A stretch of DNA of 64,000 bases from Thermanaerothrix daxensis (GTDB lineage: Bacteria; Chloroflexota; Anaerolineae; Anaerolineales; Anaerolineaceae): the NCBI RefSeq assembly GCF_001306145.1, contig NZ_LGKO01000005.1, forward strand, positions 806,001 to 870,000, in the 5' to 3' direction. This document shows positions 44,618-51,079 of this stretch, one piece after another. The notes under the pieces were generated by a model, which had not been told where the DNA came from, did not search any database, and saw only the letters and a program-made list of their open reading frames with translations. The translations under genes were made by a program, and so were the position numbers. Each line of letters begins with the position of its first letter. The stretch's first letter is position 1.

Positions 44618-45414
44618 GTATGTTGGAGAAGTTGCCTCAACCTGTCATTTTTGCGCATCGCGGAGCCTCGGCATACGCTCCGGAGAATACCCTGGCAGCC
44701 TTCCGTCTGGCGGCTAAGCAAGGTGTGGAAGCCATTGAGTTGGATGCGAAACTAACCGCCGATGGCGAGGTGGTGGTCATCCACGATATGACTGTTGACC
44801 GCACGACTAACGGTCATGGGGAAGTACGCCGCTTACGCCTTGAGGAAATCAGAAGGTTGGATGCGGGGTCCTTCTTCTCAGAGGCTTATCGTGGCGAGAA
44901 GGTCCCCTTATTACGCGAAGTATTTGAAGAATTAGGTCAACGCTTGTTTATCAATGTGGAATTAACCAACTACAATGCTCCGCTGGATCCCCTCCCAGTC
45001 AAGGTGGCGCAGTTAGTCCGTGAATATCACCTGGAGGAACGCGTTCTTTTCTCCTCGTTTAATCCCTGGAACCTGCTCCGTATTCGTCGCCGACTACCAG
45101 AATGTCCGGTGGCTTTGCTGGCCCTGGAGGGACGCTCGGGCTGGTTAGCGCGTTCTGACCTGATGCACTGGGTTTCACCGCGCATTATTCACCCCTATTT
45201 TGCCGACGTCACCCCTGAATGGATAAGGCACGCGCATCAACGTGGACGGCGTATTCACGTTTGGACGGTCAACCGGGCAGAGGATCTGGAGACTCTTTTC
45301 CGTTGGGGGGTGGATGGGGTGTTTACGGATGATCCGATTCTGGCTATGCAGATTCGCTCTCGGGTGAAGGGGCTTGAGGCTGGCTCCGTGGACGAGGTGG
45401 TTGCGAGGTTATGA
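44614..45414 (+). CDS. Glycerophosphodiester phosphodiesterase
   Basis: A 266-residue GDPD-family TIM-barrel enzyme. The N-terminal signature is HRGASAYAPENTLAAF (His, Arg, Glu), followed by ELDAKLTADGEVVVIHD, which supplies metal ligands and the second catalytic histidine, and the C-terminal VWTVN and GVDGVFTDDP. It hydrolyses glycerophosphodiesters to glycerol-3-phosphate and an alcohol. No signal peptide is visible, so it is probably cytoplasmic. The start is a GTG overlapping the AAA+ stop (GTGA), and its own stop overlaps the GH3 start, making a three-gene coupled unit. Confidence 0.93.
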   Translation: MSMLEKLPQPVIFAHRGASAYAPENTLAAFRLAAKQGVEAIELDAKLTADGEVVVIHDMTVDRTTNGHGEVRRLRLEEIRRLDAGSFFSEAYRGEKVPLLREVFEELGQRLFINVELTNYNAPLDPLPVKVAQLVREYHLEERVLFSSFNPWNLLRIRRRLPECPVALLALEGRSGWLARSDLMHWVSPRIIHPYFADVTPEWIRHAHQRGRRIHVWTVNRAEDLETLFRWGVDGVFTDDPILAMQIRSRVKGLEAGSVDEVVARL

Positions 45415-48299
45415 GTCGAGGTAGGCAGACTAAGATTGAAGATGAGCGCGCGAACCGGTACTGGGGGTGGGTGGTGCGTATTGGTTTGCTAATCCTTGCT
45501 CTAATGGCTCTTTTAGGTGGATCACCCACGCCGAGTCTTGCTCAAACTTCCCCCAATAGCGCTGAGGCACGTGCGCGTGAACTTTTGGCTCGTCTTTCGC
45601 CCGAGGAAAAGGTGGGGCAATTGTTCCTGGTGGGGTTTCAAGGCCGTGATGTCAGCCCGGGCACGCCGATTCATACGCTTATTACCCGCTACCATATTGG
45701 GGGTGTGGTTCTCAGTGCTGCCAATGATAACTTCACGGGCCCCGAAGGTACGGTGGCCCAAACTGCGGCTTTGATTCGCAATCTGCAGCAGGTGGCATGG
45801 GATATCACTCAGACCCCTGCTATGGATGTTCGAAGTGGGCAGCCCCTAGCTCTAACCTACATTCCCTTGTTGGTGGGAATTTCGCAGGAGGGGGATTTAT
45901 ATCCCAATGATCAAATTTTCAATGGGGTGACCCCCTTGCCCAGTGCCATGGCAGTGGGTGCCACCTGGAAACCGGCACTGGCTGAACAAGTGGGGCAGGT
46001 TCTGGGAAAAGAACTTTATGCCCTGGGGTTTAACCTCTACCTTGGTCCATCCTTGGACGTGTTGGATGTGCCGAATCTGGGCATCAGCGGTGAAGATTTG
46101 GGAACACGCACGTTTGGTGGTGATCCTTATTGGGTAGGTGAGATGGGAAAGGCGTTCATTCGAGGGGTGCACGCCGGGAGCAACGGGCGAATTGCGGTCA
46201 TAGCGAAGCATTTTCCGGGTCAGGGCAGTTCCGATCGTTCACCCGAAGAAGAGGTGGCCACGGTCAGGAAATCGCTGGAACAACTTAAGCAAGTTGAACT
46301 GGCACCTTTCTTTGCGGTGACCCAGGCGCTTCCTGGAAATCCTATTTCGCCAGATGGGGTACTCGTCTCGCATATTCGCTACCAGGGATTTCAAGGGAAT
46401 ATTCGTGCCAGCACACGCCCGATCTCATTAGATGCCACGGCGCTGGAACAATTGCTCAAACTTGAGCCGATTGGCATCTGGTATCAGGGGGGTGGGCTGA
46501 TCATTAGCGACAACCTGGGAAGCAATGCGGTAAAGCGCTTTTTTGATCCAACTGGCCAGAATTTTGACCCGCGTTTGGTAGCGCGCACAGCATTTCTGGC
46601 GGGCAATGATCTGCTTTACCTGAATAATTTTGTAGGGTCAGGAGATACAGATGCCTTCGACTCAATTGCGAAGACGCTGGATGCTTTTGTTCAGAAATAT
46701 CTGGAAGATCCAGCCTTCGCGGAGAGGGTGGACGCTTCGGTATTGCGCATCCTTACCCTCAAATTTCGTTTGTATCCTTCGTTTGTGCTGGAAGATGTGA
46801 TTCCCGAAGCAATTGCTTTGAACGAGGTAGGGCGCTCTCAATCTGTTGTCTTTGAAGTTGCCCGTCAATCTGTTACCCTGCTCAGCCCAGATGCGGCAGA
46901 CTTAAGTGATGCCCTGCCTCGTCCACCTGCCACTCGAGAAGGGATGATCTTCTTCACGGATGTAGAGAACGCCCGTCAATGCAGCACCTGCCCGGAGCAA
47001 TCTGTTTTCGCTGTAGATGGATTGAAGAAGGCTATTGTGCGTCTTTACGGGCCTCAGGCAGGCGGTCAGATCAACGAAGCCTATCTTTCTGCCTATTCAT
47101 TTCAGGACCTTACCGCTTATTTGAACGGCGGGCAGGAAATGACTGCCTTGGATAACAATCTGCGTCAAGCCGAATGGGTGATTTTCTCGATCTTGAATCC
47201 ACGTCGCGGGCATCCGGAAGCCAACGCCTTGCGACGATTGTTGACCGAACGTCCCGATCTGATCCGCAATAAACGGGTCATTGTATTTGCCTTCAATGCC
47301 CCCTATTATTTGGATGCTACCGACATCAGTAAGTTAACCGCCTATTATGCCGTATATAGTAAAGCGCCGCCTTTCCTGGACATGGCCGCACGCGTACTTT
47401 TTCAGGAAGTTGTGCCGGTTGGGGCGTCTCCGGTTTCAGTGCCCGGGATAGGCTACGATCTTATCACGGCGACTTCACCCGATCCAACGCAGGTGATCCC
47501 CATCATAGTGGAGCCGGTTGGGAGCGAAGGTGCCGCAATTCCCTCAAATACCCCTCAAATAACGGCAACGGAAGCCCCCTCGTTTAGAGTGGGTGACGTT
47601 ATCTCCATACGTACTGGATTGATTTATGACCACAATCGTAATCCCGTGCCGGATGGAACGGTTGTGCGGTTTATGGTCACGGCAGGGGTGGGGGAAAAGC
47701 GTATTCAACAACAGATTGAGACGGTAACCGTTCAAGGGGTGGCGCAGACCACTTACAAGATTACTGAGACCAGCCCAATTGAAATTCGCGCCGCCAGCGA
47801 TCCGGCGTTGTTGTCGCAGATCATTACCATCAACATAATAAATGGTCAGGAAGCGGCTGTAACGGCCGTTTTACCAACCACGATCCCCACTGAAGTTCCC
47901 GAGAGGACTGTGACACCTGCCGAGATCACCCCGACTCCTACTGTAGAACCCCCAACAGCCGAGGAGGAGACCTTGCCTTTCGGGGTGGGGTTGATTTCCC
48001 TGGTAGTGGTCTGGGGCATTGGTCTTGGTGTCGGGGGGATAGCCGCCAAAAAGCTTGCAATGCGTTTGGCCTATCAGCAATCTATGTTTACGATTATTGG
48101 GGGAATGGTGGCTTACGTGGCGACGTTATTGCTACCTGCCTCTCGAAGTGGTTTCTTGCAGGCCGGGTTGCCGGGGATTCTGGTAGCCATCTTATTGGGG
48201 TGTGGTGTGGGTTGGGGGCTGGGACGCTTATGGCAGGTGGCAGGAGGCCAGATGCGCACCTGGCTGGAGCATTGGCTTGGGATCAACGAATCAGAGTGA
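45411..48299 (+). CDS. Secreted, membrane-anchored glycoside hydrolase family 3 protein with atypical dyad
   Basis: A 962-residue protein. An N-terminal signal or anchor (about 21-45, ending SLAQ) precedes a GH3 catalytic barrel. The KHFPGQG motif lies at 266-272 and the likely nucleophile Asp367 is in IISDNLG. NagZ enzymes carry a DSH acid/base dyad after KHFPG, but here the sequence is SSDRSPEEE with no histidine. A second domain, an Ig-like/beta domain (about 740-800, GDVISIRTGLIYDHN), a Thr/Pro-rich linker and two or three C-terminal membrane helices follow. It may act on cell-wall or environmental glycans. It overlaps the converging kinase by 17 bp. Confidence 0.87.
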   Translation: MSRGRQTKIEDERANRYWGWVVRIGLLILALMALLGGSPTPSLAQTSPNSAEARARELLARLSPEEKVGQLFLVGFQGRDVSPGTPIHTLITRYHIGGVVLSAANDNFTGPEGTVAQTAALIRNLQQVAWDITQTPAMDVRSGQPLALTYIPLLVGISQEGDLYPNDQIFNGVTPLPSAMAVGATWKPALAEQVGQVLGKELYALGFNLYLGPSLDVLDVPNLGISGEDLGTRTFGGDPYWVGEMGKAFIRGVHAGSNGRIAVIAKHFPGQGSSDRSPEEEVATVRKSLEQLKQVELAPFFAVTQALPGNPISPDGVLVSHIRYQGFQGNIRASTRPISLDATALEQLLKLEPIGIWYQGGGLIISDNLGSNAVKRFFDPTGQNFDPRLVARTAFLAGNDLLYLNNFVGSGDTDAFDSIAKTLDAFVQKYLEDPAFAERVDASVLRILTLKFRLYPSFVLEDVIPEAIALNEVGRSQSVVFEVARQSVTLLSPDAADLSDALPRPPATREGMIFFTDVENARQCSTCPEQSVFAVDGLKKAIVRLYGPQAGGQINEAYLSAYSFQDLTAYLNGGQEMTALDNNLRQAEWVIFSILNPRRGHPEANALRRLLTERPDLIRNKRVIVFAFNAPYYLDATDISKLTAYYAVYSKAPPFLDMAARVLFQEVVPVGASPVSVPGIGYDLITATSPDPTQVIPIIVEPVGSEGAAIPSNTPQITATEAPSFRVGDVISIRTGLIYDHNRNPVPDGTVVRFMVTAGVGEKRIQQQIETVTVQGVAQTTYKITETSPIEIRAASDPALLSQIITINIINGQEAAVTAVLPTTIPTEVPERTVTPAEITPTPTVEPPTAEEETLPFGVGLISLVVVWGIGLGVGGIAAKKLAMRLAYQQSMFTIIGGMVAYVATLLLPASRSGFLQAGLPGILVAILLGCGVGWGLGRLWQVAGGQMRTWLEHWLGINESE

Positions 48300-49272
48300 T
48301 CATCAGCCCTAGCAGTGTCAGTGCAATGGCAGTATAAAGCAATAAGCGCTCCGCAGGCAGTGCCAGGAAGTACCACTTAGGGTATTTGATCTGCCTTGGA
48401 AGTGAGCGGGGATAGGTTGGTCGGTCCCCAATTAAACTGAGGCGAAATTGTTCTACGCTTTCAGGGCGTTCGCTGGGATGTAAGCCCATGGCCCACAGAA
48501 TGGCACGTTCGGTGCGGAGACTGATGGCAGGGTTGATTTGGCGGGGAGGAATCAGAGCCTCGGGGTTAAGGAAACGCTCTTTGGCATCCGCTGGAGGGGT
48601 GTTGGTGAGCAGGTGGTATAGCGTAGCACCAAAGGCATAAATATCGCTGCGGACATCGGTGTGCCCCCCGTCGCCTCCGTATTGTTCCAGAGGCGTGTAG
48701 AGGGCTGTGCCCTGACCTTGCAAGATGGTAATCGTCACTTCCCCTGGCGCCAGCATTTTGACCAAACCAAAATCCACCAATTTGAGCAATCCGCTGGGTG
48801 TGATTTTGAGATTGCTGGGCTTGATATCCCGATGCAAAATAGGAGGATTCTGGCTATGCAAGTAGGTCAAGGCATCGGCGAGCTGATTAGCCCAGTTCAG
48901 AACATCGCTTTCGGGCAAGAACTCGCGGCGGGCTTTGGCTTCCAGCATTAATGTGCGCAGGTCCTTGCCTGGAATGTAATCCATGACCAGATAGTCACGC
49001 TCTTCGACCGAAAAGAAGTCCGAAACCTTGGGAAGATTCGGGTGATCCAACCGCGCCAGGACGGTGGCTTCACGGAAAAACTGCTCTCGGGCTTCTTTGA
49101 GCAGCTCCGGAGGCAATGAACGGTCGTATTCGACTTCCTTGAGTGCACATTGACGCCCCTCCAGACGCAGGTCGTCAGCCAGATAAATATTCCCCATCCC
49201 GCCATGGCCGATGATTCGGCGGATGCGGTAGCGGTTCCGCAGAATACTCCCGGCTTTCAGGGGTAAGGGCAT
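48283..49272 (-). CDS. Hanks-type serine/threonine protein kinase with C-terminal membrane anchor
   Basis: A 329-residue eukaryotic-like kinase. The glycine loop is GHGGMGNIY (22-30), Lys45 lies in CALKEV, the catalytic loop HRDIKPSN is at 147-154 and DFG at 167-169, so it should be active. A single hydrophobic helix lies at the C-terminus (about 307-327) with no extracellular sensor (no PASTA domain). It would face the cytoplasm. It is divergent from the FHA regulator gene and shares a 155-bp promoter region with it. FHA domains bind phosphothreonine, so the neighbour is a likely target. Confidence 0.93.
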   Translation of the reverse strand: MPLPLKAGSILRNRYRIRRIIGHGGMGNIYLADDLRLEGRQCALKEVEYDRSLPPELLKEAREQFFREATVLARLDHPNLPKVSDFFSVEERDYLVMDYIPGKDLRTLMLEAKARREFLPESDVLNWANQLADALTYLHSQNPPILHRDIKPSNLKITPSGLLKLVDFGLVKMLAPGEVTITILQGQGTALYTPLEQYGGDGGHTDVRSDIYAFGATLYHLLTNTPPADAKERFLNPEALIPPRQINPAISLRTERAILWAMGLHPSERPESVEQFRLSLIGDRPTYPRSLPRQIKYPKWYFLALPAERLLLYTAIALTLLGLMITLIR

Positions 49273-49366
49273 GGTGGTGACTTCCTGACATCATTGAGAG
49301 TGGCTGGCATCTTAATAGCGGCGTAAATGCCAACCGAAAAGGGCGTACCTTCTGTGGTCATTTTCT

Positions 49367-49379
49367 GTTATATTATAAC
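49367..49379. promoter_or_regulatory. Palindromic -10-like element shared by kinase and FHA genes
   Basis: GTTATATTATAAC is an exact 13-bp palindrome. It contains TATAAT on the minus strand (49372-49377) and TATTAT on the plus strand (49371-49376). It could serve as a bidirectional -10 or as a regulator site. No -35 match is clear on either side. Confidence 0.45.
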
Positions 49380-49427
49380 TGAGGGTCGGTGGACTGTTTG
49401 AAGCGATTTCTGAGCCTGGGAGCCTGA

Positions 49428-50111
49428 TTGAGGAACATGCTAGAAAAAGATTTGCCGCTACTTATCGGTCAGACGGGGCCATTGAACGGGCAGCGCTGGG
49501 CTATTGATCGGGTGTTAACTATTGGACGCGATGCGCAGTGTGAGGTGGTGATCCCCGATCGTCAGGTCTCCCGTTATCATGCGCGGTTGGTGCCTGATGA
49601 GGAGGGGGTGCTTTTAGAGGACTTAGGAAGCAAAAATGGGACCTTTCGTAATGGTCAGCGTATTGAAGGTGAAGTGCGATTAGAGGATGGGGATTTGATC
49701 CAGATTGCGCTGGTGCAACATTTTGTGTTTCTGGCTTCCGATGCCACCCTCCCTCTCCTGGAGCCATTAGTCGTACCTGGGGAGAGAGAATCTGAGCCCT
49801 GGCGGCGGCGCCTGTATTTAGACAGGCAGTCTCATCGCGTGTGGGTGGCGGGGCGCGAGGTTCTACCTCCTTTGTCGGTCCCCCAGTTTCGTCTCCTGGA
49901 ACTGCTTTATGAACATCAGGGGGAAGCGGTATCACGGCAGGAAATTATTTCCGCAGTGTGGGGGAATGAGCAGGCATTGGGTGTATCCGACCAGGCGTTG
50001 GATGCGTTGGTGCGACGGTTGAGAGATCGCCTTGCTGCAAGTGATGAGTACCCATACTTGGTGACCGTGCGGGGTTACGGATTTCGTCTGGATAATCCGT
50101 TGTACCCATGA
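49428..50111 (+). CDS. FHA domain fused to OmpR/PhoB-type DNA-binding domain
   Basis: A 227-residue two-domain protein. The N-terminal FHA domain has the phosphothreonine-binding residues GR (33-34), SRYH (48-51) and SKNG (68-71). The C-terminal winged-helix domain of the OmpR/PhoB class begins near 125 and ends with the wing LVTVRGYGFRL. There is no receiver domain. It is probably a transcription regulator whose activity depends on binding a phosphorylated partner. The start may be TTG 49428 (GGGAG 5 nt upstream) or ATG 49437. It is divergent from the kinase gene. Confidence 0.88.
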   Translation: MRNMLEKDLPLLIGQTGPLNGQRWAIDRVLTIGRDAQCEVVIPDRQVSRYHARLVPDEEGVLLEDLGSKNGTFRNGQRIEGEVRLEDGDLIQIALVQHFVFLASDATLPLLEPLVVPGERESEPWRRRLYLDRQSHRVWVAGREVLPPLSVPQFRLLELLYEHQGEAVSRQEIISAVWGNEQALGVSDQALDALVRRLRDRLAASDEYPYLVTVRGYGFRLDNPLYP

Positions 50112-50173: not shown

Positions 50174-51079
50174 GTGCAGAAACCTGAGAGTCCGTCGTTG
50201 CCAGAGTCATTGAATGCCAAGATAAGGGGTGGGAAAATTGTGAAGCGAAAAAATCGAAAGTCCGCTACACAAAATACGGGGGCATCTATTCAGGAAGGGA
50301 CAAAGTCCAATCTCAAATCCACACGGCGCTCGGGGGGATTGGCGATTGATTCTGATCCGGTTGAAGCGGTTCCCTCTGCCGCTGGGGTCTCGGAGCGCAC
50401 GGTGCCCGTGCGTTTTCTGCTTGGGGTGTTGGGAGGAGGCCCGATTGGCTTAACCCGTGATCTTTCCAGTAAATTCTGGGATGGCCTGATCCCAATGGCG
50501 GCACTTGTGTTGCTAACGCTTGTATTGCATATGCTGGCCGCCCCTATTCAGGGGTTTTGGGGGAATTCGGGGTTGTTGGTTTATTTGGTTTCTTTACTAG
50601 GCCTGGGAGTGGTATTGCTCAATCATGCCATTCTCCAGACATACTCGGAAATTGCGCGGGGGTGGCTGGGGCTTGCCAGTGGGATTGTGATGTGGTACGT
50701 GATCTTGCTCAGTGAAAAAATCGGGGGTGCCCAAATACCGGGAGCCACTATTCTCTTGCTATTGGTTGTTATTGGGTTGGTTAGTGCTATTTTGTGGAAA
50801 TCAGTGTTTCCTATCGGGATCAAGTTCTTTGTCCTCAGTGTATTCCTGGCTGCGGTTGCCCGCTTCTGGATCACTTCCCAGCAACTTATGGCTACAGCAT
50901 GGCCGTTATTTAACTCTAGCTTGATCATTTCGGGCTACGTGGCCCTGGCGGCGTTGGTGTTCGTTTTGGTGTGGATCATTGTGTTGAGCAAGGAGCGCAC
51001 CCAACGTTTGTGGGCAGCAATGTGGGGCTGGTTCTGGGCCTTACAAGTACTCTCGGTGTTTCTAGGTAAACCCCTTTAG
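50174..51079 (+). CDS. Membrane protein with basic N-terminal tail, unknown function
   Basis: A protein of up to 301 residues. About 75 residues are polar and basic (RKNRKS, RRSGG), and about five or six hydrophobic helices follow from residue 95. The helical part resembles YIP1-like small membrane domains, but I cannot confirm that. The frame starts at GTG 50174 without a ribosome-binding site. GTG 50240, with GGGTGGG about 6 nt before it, may be the real start. It lies 62 bp after the FHA regulator on the same strand and may be co-transcribed. It converges on the GT4 gene with a 1-bp gap. Confidence 0.7.
   Translation: MQKPESPSLPESLNAKIRGGKIVKRKNRKSATQNTGASIQEGTKSNLKSTRRSGGLAIDSDPVEAVPSAAGVSERTVPVRFLLGVLGGGPIGLTRDLSSKFWDGLIPMAALVLLTLVLHMLAAPIQGFWGNSGLLVYLVSLLGLGVVLLNHAILQTYSEIARGWLGLASGIVMWYVILLSEKIGGAQIPGATILLLLVVIGLVSAILWKSVFPIGIKFFVLSVFLAAVARFWITSQQLMATAWPLFNSSLIISGYVALAALVFVLVWIIVLSKERTQRLWAAMWGWFWALQVLSVFLGKPL

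Follow-up and report, generated by a model that had tools for sequence, protein, structure and literature searches.

The three genes analysed here lie in a 64,000-nucleotide stretch of the Thermanaerothrix daxensis genome (contig NZ_LGKO01000005.1, forward-strand positions 806,001 to 870,000), which we refer to as the window and in whose coordinates all features are given. One encodes a regulator that we call FHAW (49437..50111, forward strand), in which an FHA domain is followed by an OmpR-type winged helix. Divergent from it is the gene for a Hanks-type Ser/Thr kinase (48283..49272, reverse strand; Pfam PF00069, E 3.8e-36). Convergent with the kinase gene, and overlapping its 3′ end by 17 bp, is the gene for an exported, NagZ-like membrane protein of the GH3 family (45411..48299, forward strand; Pfam PF00933, E 6.3e-36). 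An earlier note on this DNA, made from the sequence alone, had drawn attention to the regulator and kinase.

That note placed the regulator gene at 49428-50111. The gene is real; its start is likelier the ATG at 49437 than the TTG at 49428, since a relative that is 93% identical (L048) has the ATG only, and we count residues from this ATG. As the note had described, the protein joins an FHA domain (49518..49706, forward strand; Pfam PF00498, E 1.4e-22, 80.3 bits against a curated cut-off of 20.7) to a winged helix (49872..50090, forward strand; Pfam PF00486, Trans_reg_C, E 1.2e-17, 64.1 bits against 26.2), in that order. The PhoB model matches its C-terminal half, and the Pfam scan of FHAW gave neither a receiver nor a BTA domain. 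The GR, SxxH and NG residues of phosphothreonine binding are intact in the window (G30 R31, S45 to H48, N67 G68, N72 G73). In an alignment of 63 full-length rows, from 55 genomes and 8 named contigs with five incomplete rows left out, G30, R31, S45, H48, N67 and G68 show no variation, and nine rows deviate at N72/G73; the conservation among homologues on which the note had staked its reading is therefore present. Among 42 wider rows S45 is lost in one (L140) and G68 in one (L139). The FHA domain can probably recognise phosphorylated partners. The residues of the recognition helix of the winged helix are likewise near-invariant among relatives. Directly after the FHA domain, an SDxTxP motif contains Thr104 (codon 49746..49748, forward strand), a candidate phosphoacceptor. 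T104 and P106 occur in all 63 full-length rows, and T104 is a threonine in 41 of the 42 wider ones; the other near-invariant threonines, T69 (61/63) and T210 (62/63), sit within the domains. An AlphaFold model of FHAW has confident domains (mean pLDDT 90.3) and an uncertain packing between them (pTM 0.52). Most of the 50 solved structures listed as matches to FHAW are entries for FHA domains, OdhI, GarA, DgcB and EmbR among them, and none of the 50 is named as an FHA-winged-helix protein in the FHAW order.

The kinase, which the note had called apparently active, carries K45, E68, HRD, N154 and DFG, and these catalytic residues are invariant in 64/64 kinases compared, as are both threonines of the activation loop T180-x-T182 (48727..48735, reverse strand), for which roles in autophosphorylation and FHA docking are presumed. 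A hydrophobic 19-mer (48289..48345, reverse strand) forms its C-terminal tail anchor. This segment ends 0-4 residues from the C terminus in 63/64 kinases, the exception containing unknown bases, and in these 63 the kinase is tail-anchored and has no ectodomain. No Pfam match to PASTA repeats was found in the window kinase, and the equivalog for PASTA kinases, NF033483 (Stk1/PknB), is matched over the kinase domain only, at 183 bits against a cut-off of 450.

The GH3 domain of the window protein is closest to solved GH3 β-N-acetylglucosaminidases. Homologues have an N-terminal hydrophobic segment in 46/59 cases and one to four C-terminal hydrophobic segments in 58/59, and we propose that the protein acts as an extracytoplasmic sensor. 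Asp-Ser-His is the catalytic motif of NagZ and the GH3 β-N-acetylglucosaminidases. Where two aligned solved chains have DSH, the present proteins have the consensus DRxPxEE, and no histidine occurs at columns 273-281 of the alignment in the 58 rows with letters there, suggesting that catalysis has been lost. Asp367, which aligns with the presumed nucleophile, is kept in 49/59 and lost in 10/59, and its retention in most rows speaks against a full loss.

We examined the neighbourhood of FHAW in 61 genomes (T. daxensis and 60 relatives). An FHAW orthologue was counted in 59; G018 and G024 were not counted (best E 1.1e-19 and 7.7e-8). The divergent FHAW/kinase pair is present in 55/59, T. daxensis included, with an intergenic distance of at most 500 bp in 54 and of 2.7 kb in the remaining one (G049). 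In the four FHAW genomes that lack the pair in the stretch inspected, three loci (L090, L097, L103) are at or near contig ends and in G011 the kinase is 22.6 kb away. Eleven named contigs were also matched; leaving out L037, an apparent duplicate of a G001 contig, and L047, which has the winged helix only, all nine have the divergent pair. The nearest named contig for FHAW is L037, from an uncultured Thermanaerothrix (93% identity). The arrangement is far beyond chance, and the kinase adjacency that the earlier note had reported, and proposed to follow across genomes, is a conserved feature; FHAW homologues that are never near kinases were not what we saw. Of 62 order-level loci, 54 have a GH3 homologue, which in 53 lies within 400 bp of the kinase and converges on it; several of the eight loci without GH3 are short contigs. 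G018, a single-contig genome of the same family, lacks orthologues of FHAW, kinase and GH3 at our cut-offs and has a distant FHAW-like gene near other kinases.

A survey of 301 genomes of the phylum, with cut-offs of at least 198 bits for FHAW, at least 336 bits for the orthologous kinase (next match 274) and E up to 1e-60 for GH3, detected FHAW in 38 and the kinase in 33, all 33 within the 38. The two occur together in 24/25 sampled genomes of the order and 8/14 of the remaining class. In these eight, all three genes are present; the pair is divergent in G143, G182, G198, G244 and G329, co-directional in G236 and unlinked in G260 and G322. G182 has two complete divergent pairs, each with its own GH3 gene, and G143 has a second FHAW (L140) that has no kinase nearby and is the copy that lost S45. 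Outside the class, G070 also has the divergent pair. Among the 41 wider loci GH3 flanks the pair in five (L139, L141, L142, L145, L153), and in L145 GH3, kinase and FHAW are consecutive on one strand. The surveys for FHAW covered Chloroflexota and a plasmid collection, where one partial FHA match was all that was found. One 4.09 Mb Acinetobacter record, NZ_CP104448.1, is filed as a plasmid, and its size suggests a chromosome.

GH3 was found in 35/301 genomes, comprising all 33 kinase-positive genomes and 2 of the 268 kinase-negative ones (G323, G336). The naive hypergeometric probability of this co-occurrence is 5e-42; the genomes are related, so independent events matter more. Kinase and GH3 are both absent from G018, from genera g61 and g66 of family f16, whose genus g71 keeps both, and from G287, which amounts to two to four losses. 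Moreover, GH3 does not adjoin the kinase in 11 of the 33 genomes, from four genera (G047, G060, G101, G135, G166, G315 and G342 in one; G198; G329; G260 and G322 in one), and is retained there all the same. In G244 and G294 GH3 is at a contig end and may adjoin the kinase. G059, outside the 301, has GH3, but no kinase match there reaches E 1e-48; a contig end lies close to each gene, about 400 bp past the end of GH3 and 166 bp before the start of FHAW. Linkage and co-occurrence are both observed, and in our judgement the GH3 protein and the kinase very probably work together.

The two kinase-negative genomes with GH3 come from different genera of one family. At E 1e-60 neither has the orthologous kinase, and at E 1e-25 neither has a free-standing FHAW. 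Here the GH3 protein is itself fused to a winged helix (L243:4774-7773, reverse strand; L244:4511-7387, forward strand). The fusion proteins, of 999 and 958 amino acids, start with a hydrophobic segment, followed by the GH3 domain and a membrane segment, and end in the winged helix; we read them from their domains as transmembrane regulators with a glycosidase-like sensor. The G323 fusion is 37% identical to the window GH3 protein over 765 amino acids (E 4e-147) and 50% identical to the winged helix of the window FHAW over 96 (E 1e-25). With an FHAW model the winged helices of the two fusions reach 114 and 123 bits; the general Pfam winged-helix model gives them 63 and 66. For each, the twelve best matches listed are FHAW proteins, from a set of open reading frames (ORFs) that was itself drawn from FHAW neighbourhoods and is thus no neutral test. 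By the usual logic of gene fusions, GH3 and this winged helix would belong to one signal path.

FHAW proteins of a second type, outside the class, also have kinase neighbours. The kinase is divergent in nine of eleven such loci (L154-L161 and L169-L171, the exceptions being L169 and L170), and these kinases, of 557-872 amino acids, belong to another subfamily. They score 84-115 bits with the Anaerolineae kinase model, and in eight of the nine genomes a better kinase is found elsewhere (E 3e-65 to 7e-77; G196 has none at E 1e-60), so that the neighbours are not the Anaerolineae kinase. In seven divergent kinases from outside the class that we examined, L164 included, a membrane segment begins at about residue 330-440 and is followed by more than 150 residues. 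In the other FHAW-like rows, the kinase is divergent at L164, co-directional at L167 and 1.5 kb away at L168, and L162, L163, L165, L166 and L172-L177 have no kinase within the stretch examined.

The earlier note had suggested that the palindrome GTTATATTATAAC between the divergent genes (49367..49379), which occurs as a single exact copy in the window, could be a binding site of FHAW itself. We rejected it as an operator. In 63 intergenic regions of up to 600 bp, one longer region being left out, the perfect 6+1+6 symmetry is kept in three (the window, its 93% relative and one other), versus a kinase-facing TATAAT in 59 (300 mononucleotide shuffles: mean 4.4, maximum 10). An extended −10 element facing FHAW occurs in 27 (shuffles: mean 0.1, maximum 1). 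We therefore interpret the palindrome as a pair of −10 elements that abut in a bidirectional promoter; PMC10268837 describes near-symmetric −10 elements from which transcription diverges. A consensus promoter scan for both hexamers found nothing in the window, suggesting that −35 elements are weak or absent. Around the shared promoter, the −10 region is the only strongly conserved element in the position profile.

A second element stays with the kinase gene. It is a putative hairpin in the kinase leader (49302..49335, reverse strand) with a conserved loop core ACGCC (49320-49324), which lies 43-81 nt ahead of the kinase start codon. The loop consensus is ACGCCGAAA and that of the window is ACGCCGCTA; stem sequences vary. 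The comparison used 88 upstream regions, each from a different genome or named contig save for two from G182, after removal of eight repeats and addition of G252. The core is present at −38 to −100 in 54 and missing from 34, and the next unrelated permuted five-mer occurs in nine. A Watson-Crick stem of at least five pairs flanks it in 41/88 (200 flank shuffles: mean 10.4, maximum 19), and one of at least six in 30/88 (mean 2.9, maximum 11); many of these regions are related, so the counts are not of independent events. The arms differ in sequence in 40 of the 41, and a MAFFT alignment aligned the loop and not the arms. The window hairpin folds at −15.6 kcal/mol (z −3.3), and five others have z of −1.8 to −4.0. 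Wobble pairs favour neither strand for the hairpin, with two T-G versus two A-C or C-A. A scan of window positions 49000-49700 against Rfam 15 yielded no match with E up to 5. G011 and G252, in which FHAW lies apart from the kinase, still have the hairpin directly upstream of the kinase, and no ACGCC-type core was seen upstream of their FHAW. These patterns are most simply explained by a structured RNA in the leader of the kinase mRNA; the hairpin may instead be a DNA element. As a genome-wide element it found no support: ACGCCGAAA occurs 71 times versus 95 for its reverse in G047 and 38 versus 50 in G000, the T. daxensis genome (a pattern that excludes the window's own loop ACGCCGCTA), and of 30 sites sampled per genome a stem of at least five was present in 4 and 6, respectively, about the shuffle rate.

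Taking these observations together, we consider it likely on balance that GH3 sensor, tail-anchored kinase and FHAW form a three-protein phosphothreonine pathway from membrane to DNA. The exported, membrane-anchored GH3 protein would sense something outside the cytoplasmic membrane, perhaps a wall fragment containing N-acetylglucosamine, and would act on the adjacent kinase, which itself lacks an ectodomain. Once active, the kinase would autophosphorylate its T180-x-T182 loop, the FHA domain of FHAW would dock on the resulting phosphothreonine, and FHAW would then be phosphorylated, most likely at the invariant linker Thr104. This may change its dimerisation or domain packing and hence DNA binding by the winged helix. 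Ligand, GH3-to-kinase contact, phosphorylation, docking and target genes are all inferred here; the residues R31/S45 and T104 of FHAW and T180/T182 of the kinase are the candidates named. Of the reading in the earlier note, the reversed domain order, the kinase adjacency and the conserved FHA residues are borne out. Its term "one-component" probably assigns the system to the wrong class, because the kinase is accompanied across genomes by an exported GH3 protein, which in two genomes is fused to such a winged helix.

Several observations weigh against this pathway. Five class-level genomes (G092, G206, G287, G308, G349) have FHAW with an intact FHA core and have neither kinase nor GH3 at E 1e-60, so FHAW can be retained for a different function or for other kinases. 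In three of them (G206, G287, G349) the winged helix is kept as well; in G092 and G308 (L138, L149) it deviates, and GH3 is matched there only weakly and in part (E 1e-31). In G011 and G252, where the genes are split, GH3 and hairpin are found beside the kinase and FHAW elsewhere, so the bond between GH3 and kinase is tighter than that between kinase and FHAW. The fusion links GH3 to the winged helix with neither kinase nor FHA domain, seven of the 11 genomes with unlinked GH3 are of a single genus, and linkage within the order is in part general synteny (GDPD in 38/62 and AAA in 28/62 loci). T104 may be structural, and the pTM of 0.52 leaves the packing of the FHAW domains open.

FHAW could alternatively be a general reader of phosphothreonine from several kinases, of which its neighbour is only one, with GH3 and kinase forming a separate pair. 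The FHAW-only and split genomes are as this would predict, and the genomes do have other kinases. However, FHAW is present in all 33 kinase-positive genomes, kinases of another subfamily again occur as its divergent neighbours, and the fusion joins GH3 to a winged helix of the FHAW kind, so that we regard this explanation as unlikely. It is more doubtful still that FHAW mainly provides feedback, controlling the divergent kinase promoter and braking the kinase through its activation loop in the manner of MupFHA or EmbR2, with few other targets. Most genomes share the divergent promoter region, and FHA proteins that inhibit their own kinase are known (PMC4238996); against this, the shared promoter has no strongly conserved element besides the −10 region, the hairpin goes with the kinase, and the recognition helix is kept in three of the five genomes without the kinase. 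Finally, synteny could be conserved without any shared function because the cluster is slow to rearrange; this fits the conservation of further neighbours and is very improbable given the co-retention of GH3 and kinase in 11 genomes where they are unlinked, their joint absence, their co-duplication and the fusion.

If the three-protein pathway is right, Ser/Thr kinases gain an equivalent of the two-component system, and the GH3-winged-helix fusion connects direct transmembrane signalling in evolution with the kinase-mediated form. More tentatively, and with rather less confidence than we have in the pathway itself, the system may represent a new class of signalling in Anaerolineae. Its detached sensor would be an exported glycosidase with altered catalysis, serving an ectodomain-less, tail-anchored kinase and a dedicated FHAW switched through Thr104; a related family would fuse sensor and winged helix, bypassing the kinase, and a leader RNA hairpin of an undescribed kind would further control kinase expression.

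Other genes were seen near these loci. An ORF after FHAW (50174-51079, forward strand) is hydrophobic in places and has no Pfam or NCBIfam match. A gene for a CpXC-domain protein lies downstream of FHAW at L053:6020-7507 (forward strand); its cluster is present in 39/62 order-level loci and absent from the window. Elsewhere in the T. daxensis genome two FHA proteins are encoded side by side (L002, L004).

We found no account of an FHA-winged-helix/kinase pair in Chloroflexota in the literature searched, most subscription journals being outside that search. As far as these searches show, which did not cover GH3, fusion or hairpin, what is new is a winged-helix factor that has its FHA domain first and the deep linkage of this factor with a tail-anchored kinase, and the pathway looks like an undescribed route from surface to genes in a little-studied bacterial group. 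Its parts have known counterparts. OmpR/PhoB response regulators share the winged-helix output, FHAW having an FHA domain in place of their receiver. The FHA switches GarA and OdhI are among the closest FHA folds and, like FHAW, have a threonine outside the FHA core. Their phospho-threonine is in an N-terminal tail; unlike FHAW, where T104 follows the FHA domain, they have no DNA-binding domain. The PASTA kinases PknB and StkP are of the same kinase domain family, and PknB has a TxT activation loop, but the window kinase has a single C-terminal anchor and neither PASTA repeats nor another ectodomain. NagZ and the GH3 β-N-acetylglucosaminidases share the N-terminal GH3 domain, and differ in having DSH where the GH3 protein has DRxPxEE and, in ten homologues, no Asp367. 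Docking of an FHA domain on a kinase activation loop is described for PknQ/MupFHA in PMC4238996, and a title cited in PMC6213207 points to it for GarA/PknB. FHA-kinase fusions are known in cyanobacteria and Chloroflexus (PMC1262709). In Mycobacterium tuberculosis, kinases and FHA partners encoded at the same locus include PknB-Rv0019c, PknF-Rv1747 and PknH-EmbR (PMC4238996). The last is among the closest parallels. EmbR, a SARP-family protein, likewise combines an FHA domain and an OmpR-type winged helix with a kinase at the same locus, and its FHA domain is required for phosphorylation (PMC4601284 and PMC4238996). Its order is DNA-binding domain, BTA, FHA (PMC4601284), so the reversal pointed out in the earlier note is borne out. 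FHAW has no BTA domain, and its kinase is tail-anchored without an ectodomain and has a GH3 partner. With these differences, the system is related to kinase/FHA-regulator signalling of the EmbR-PknH kind.

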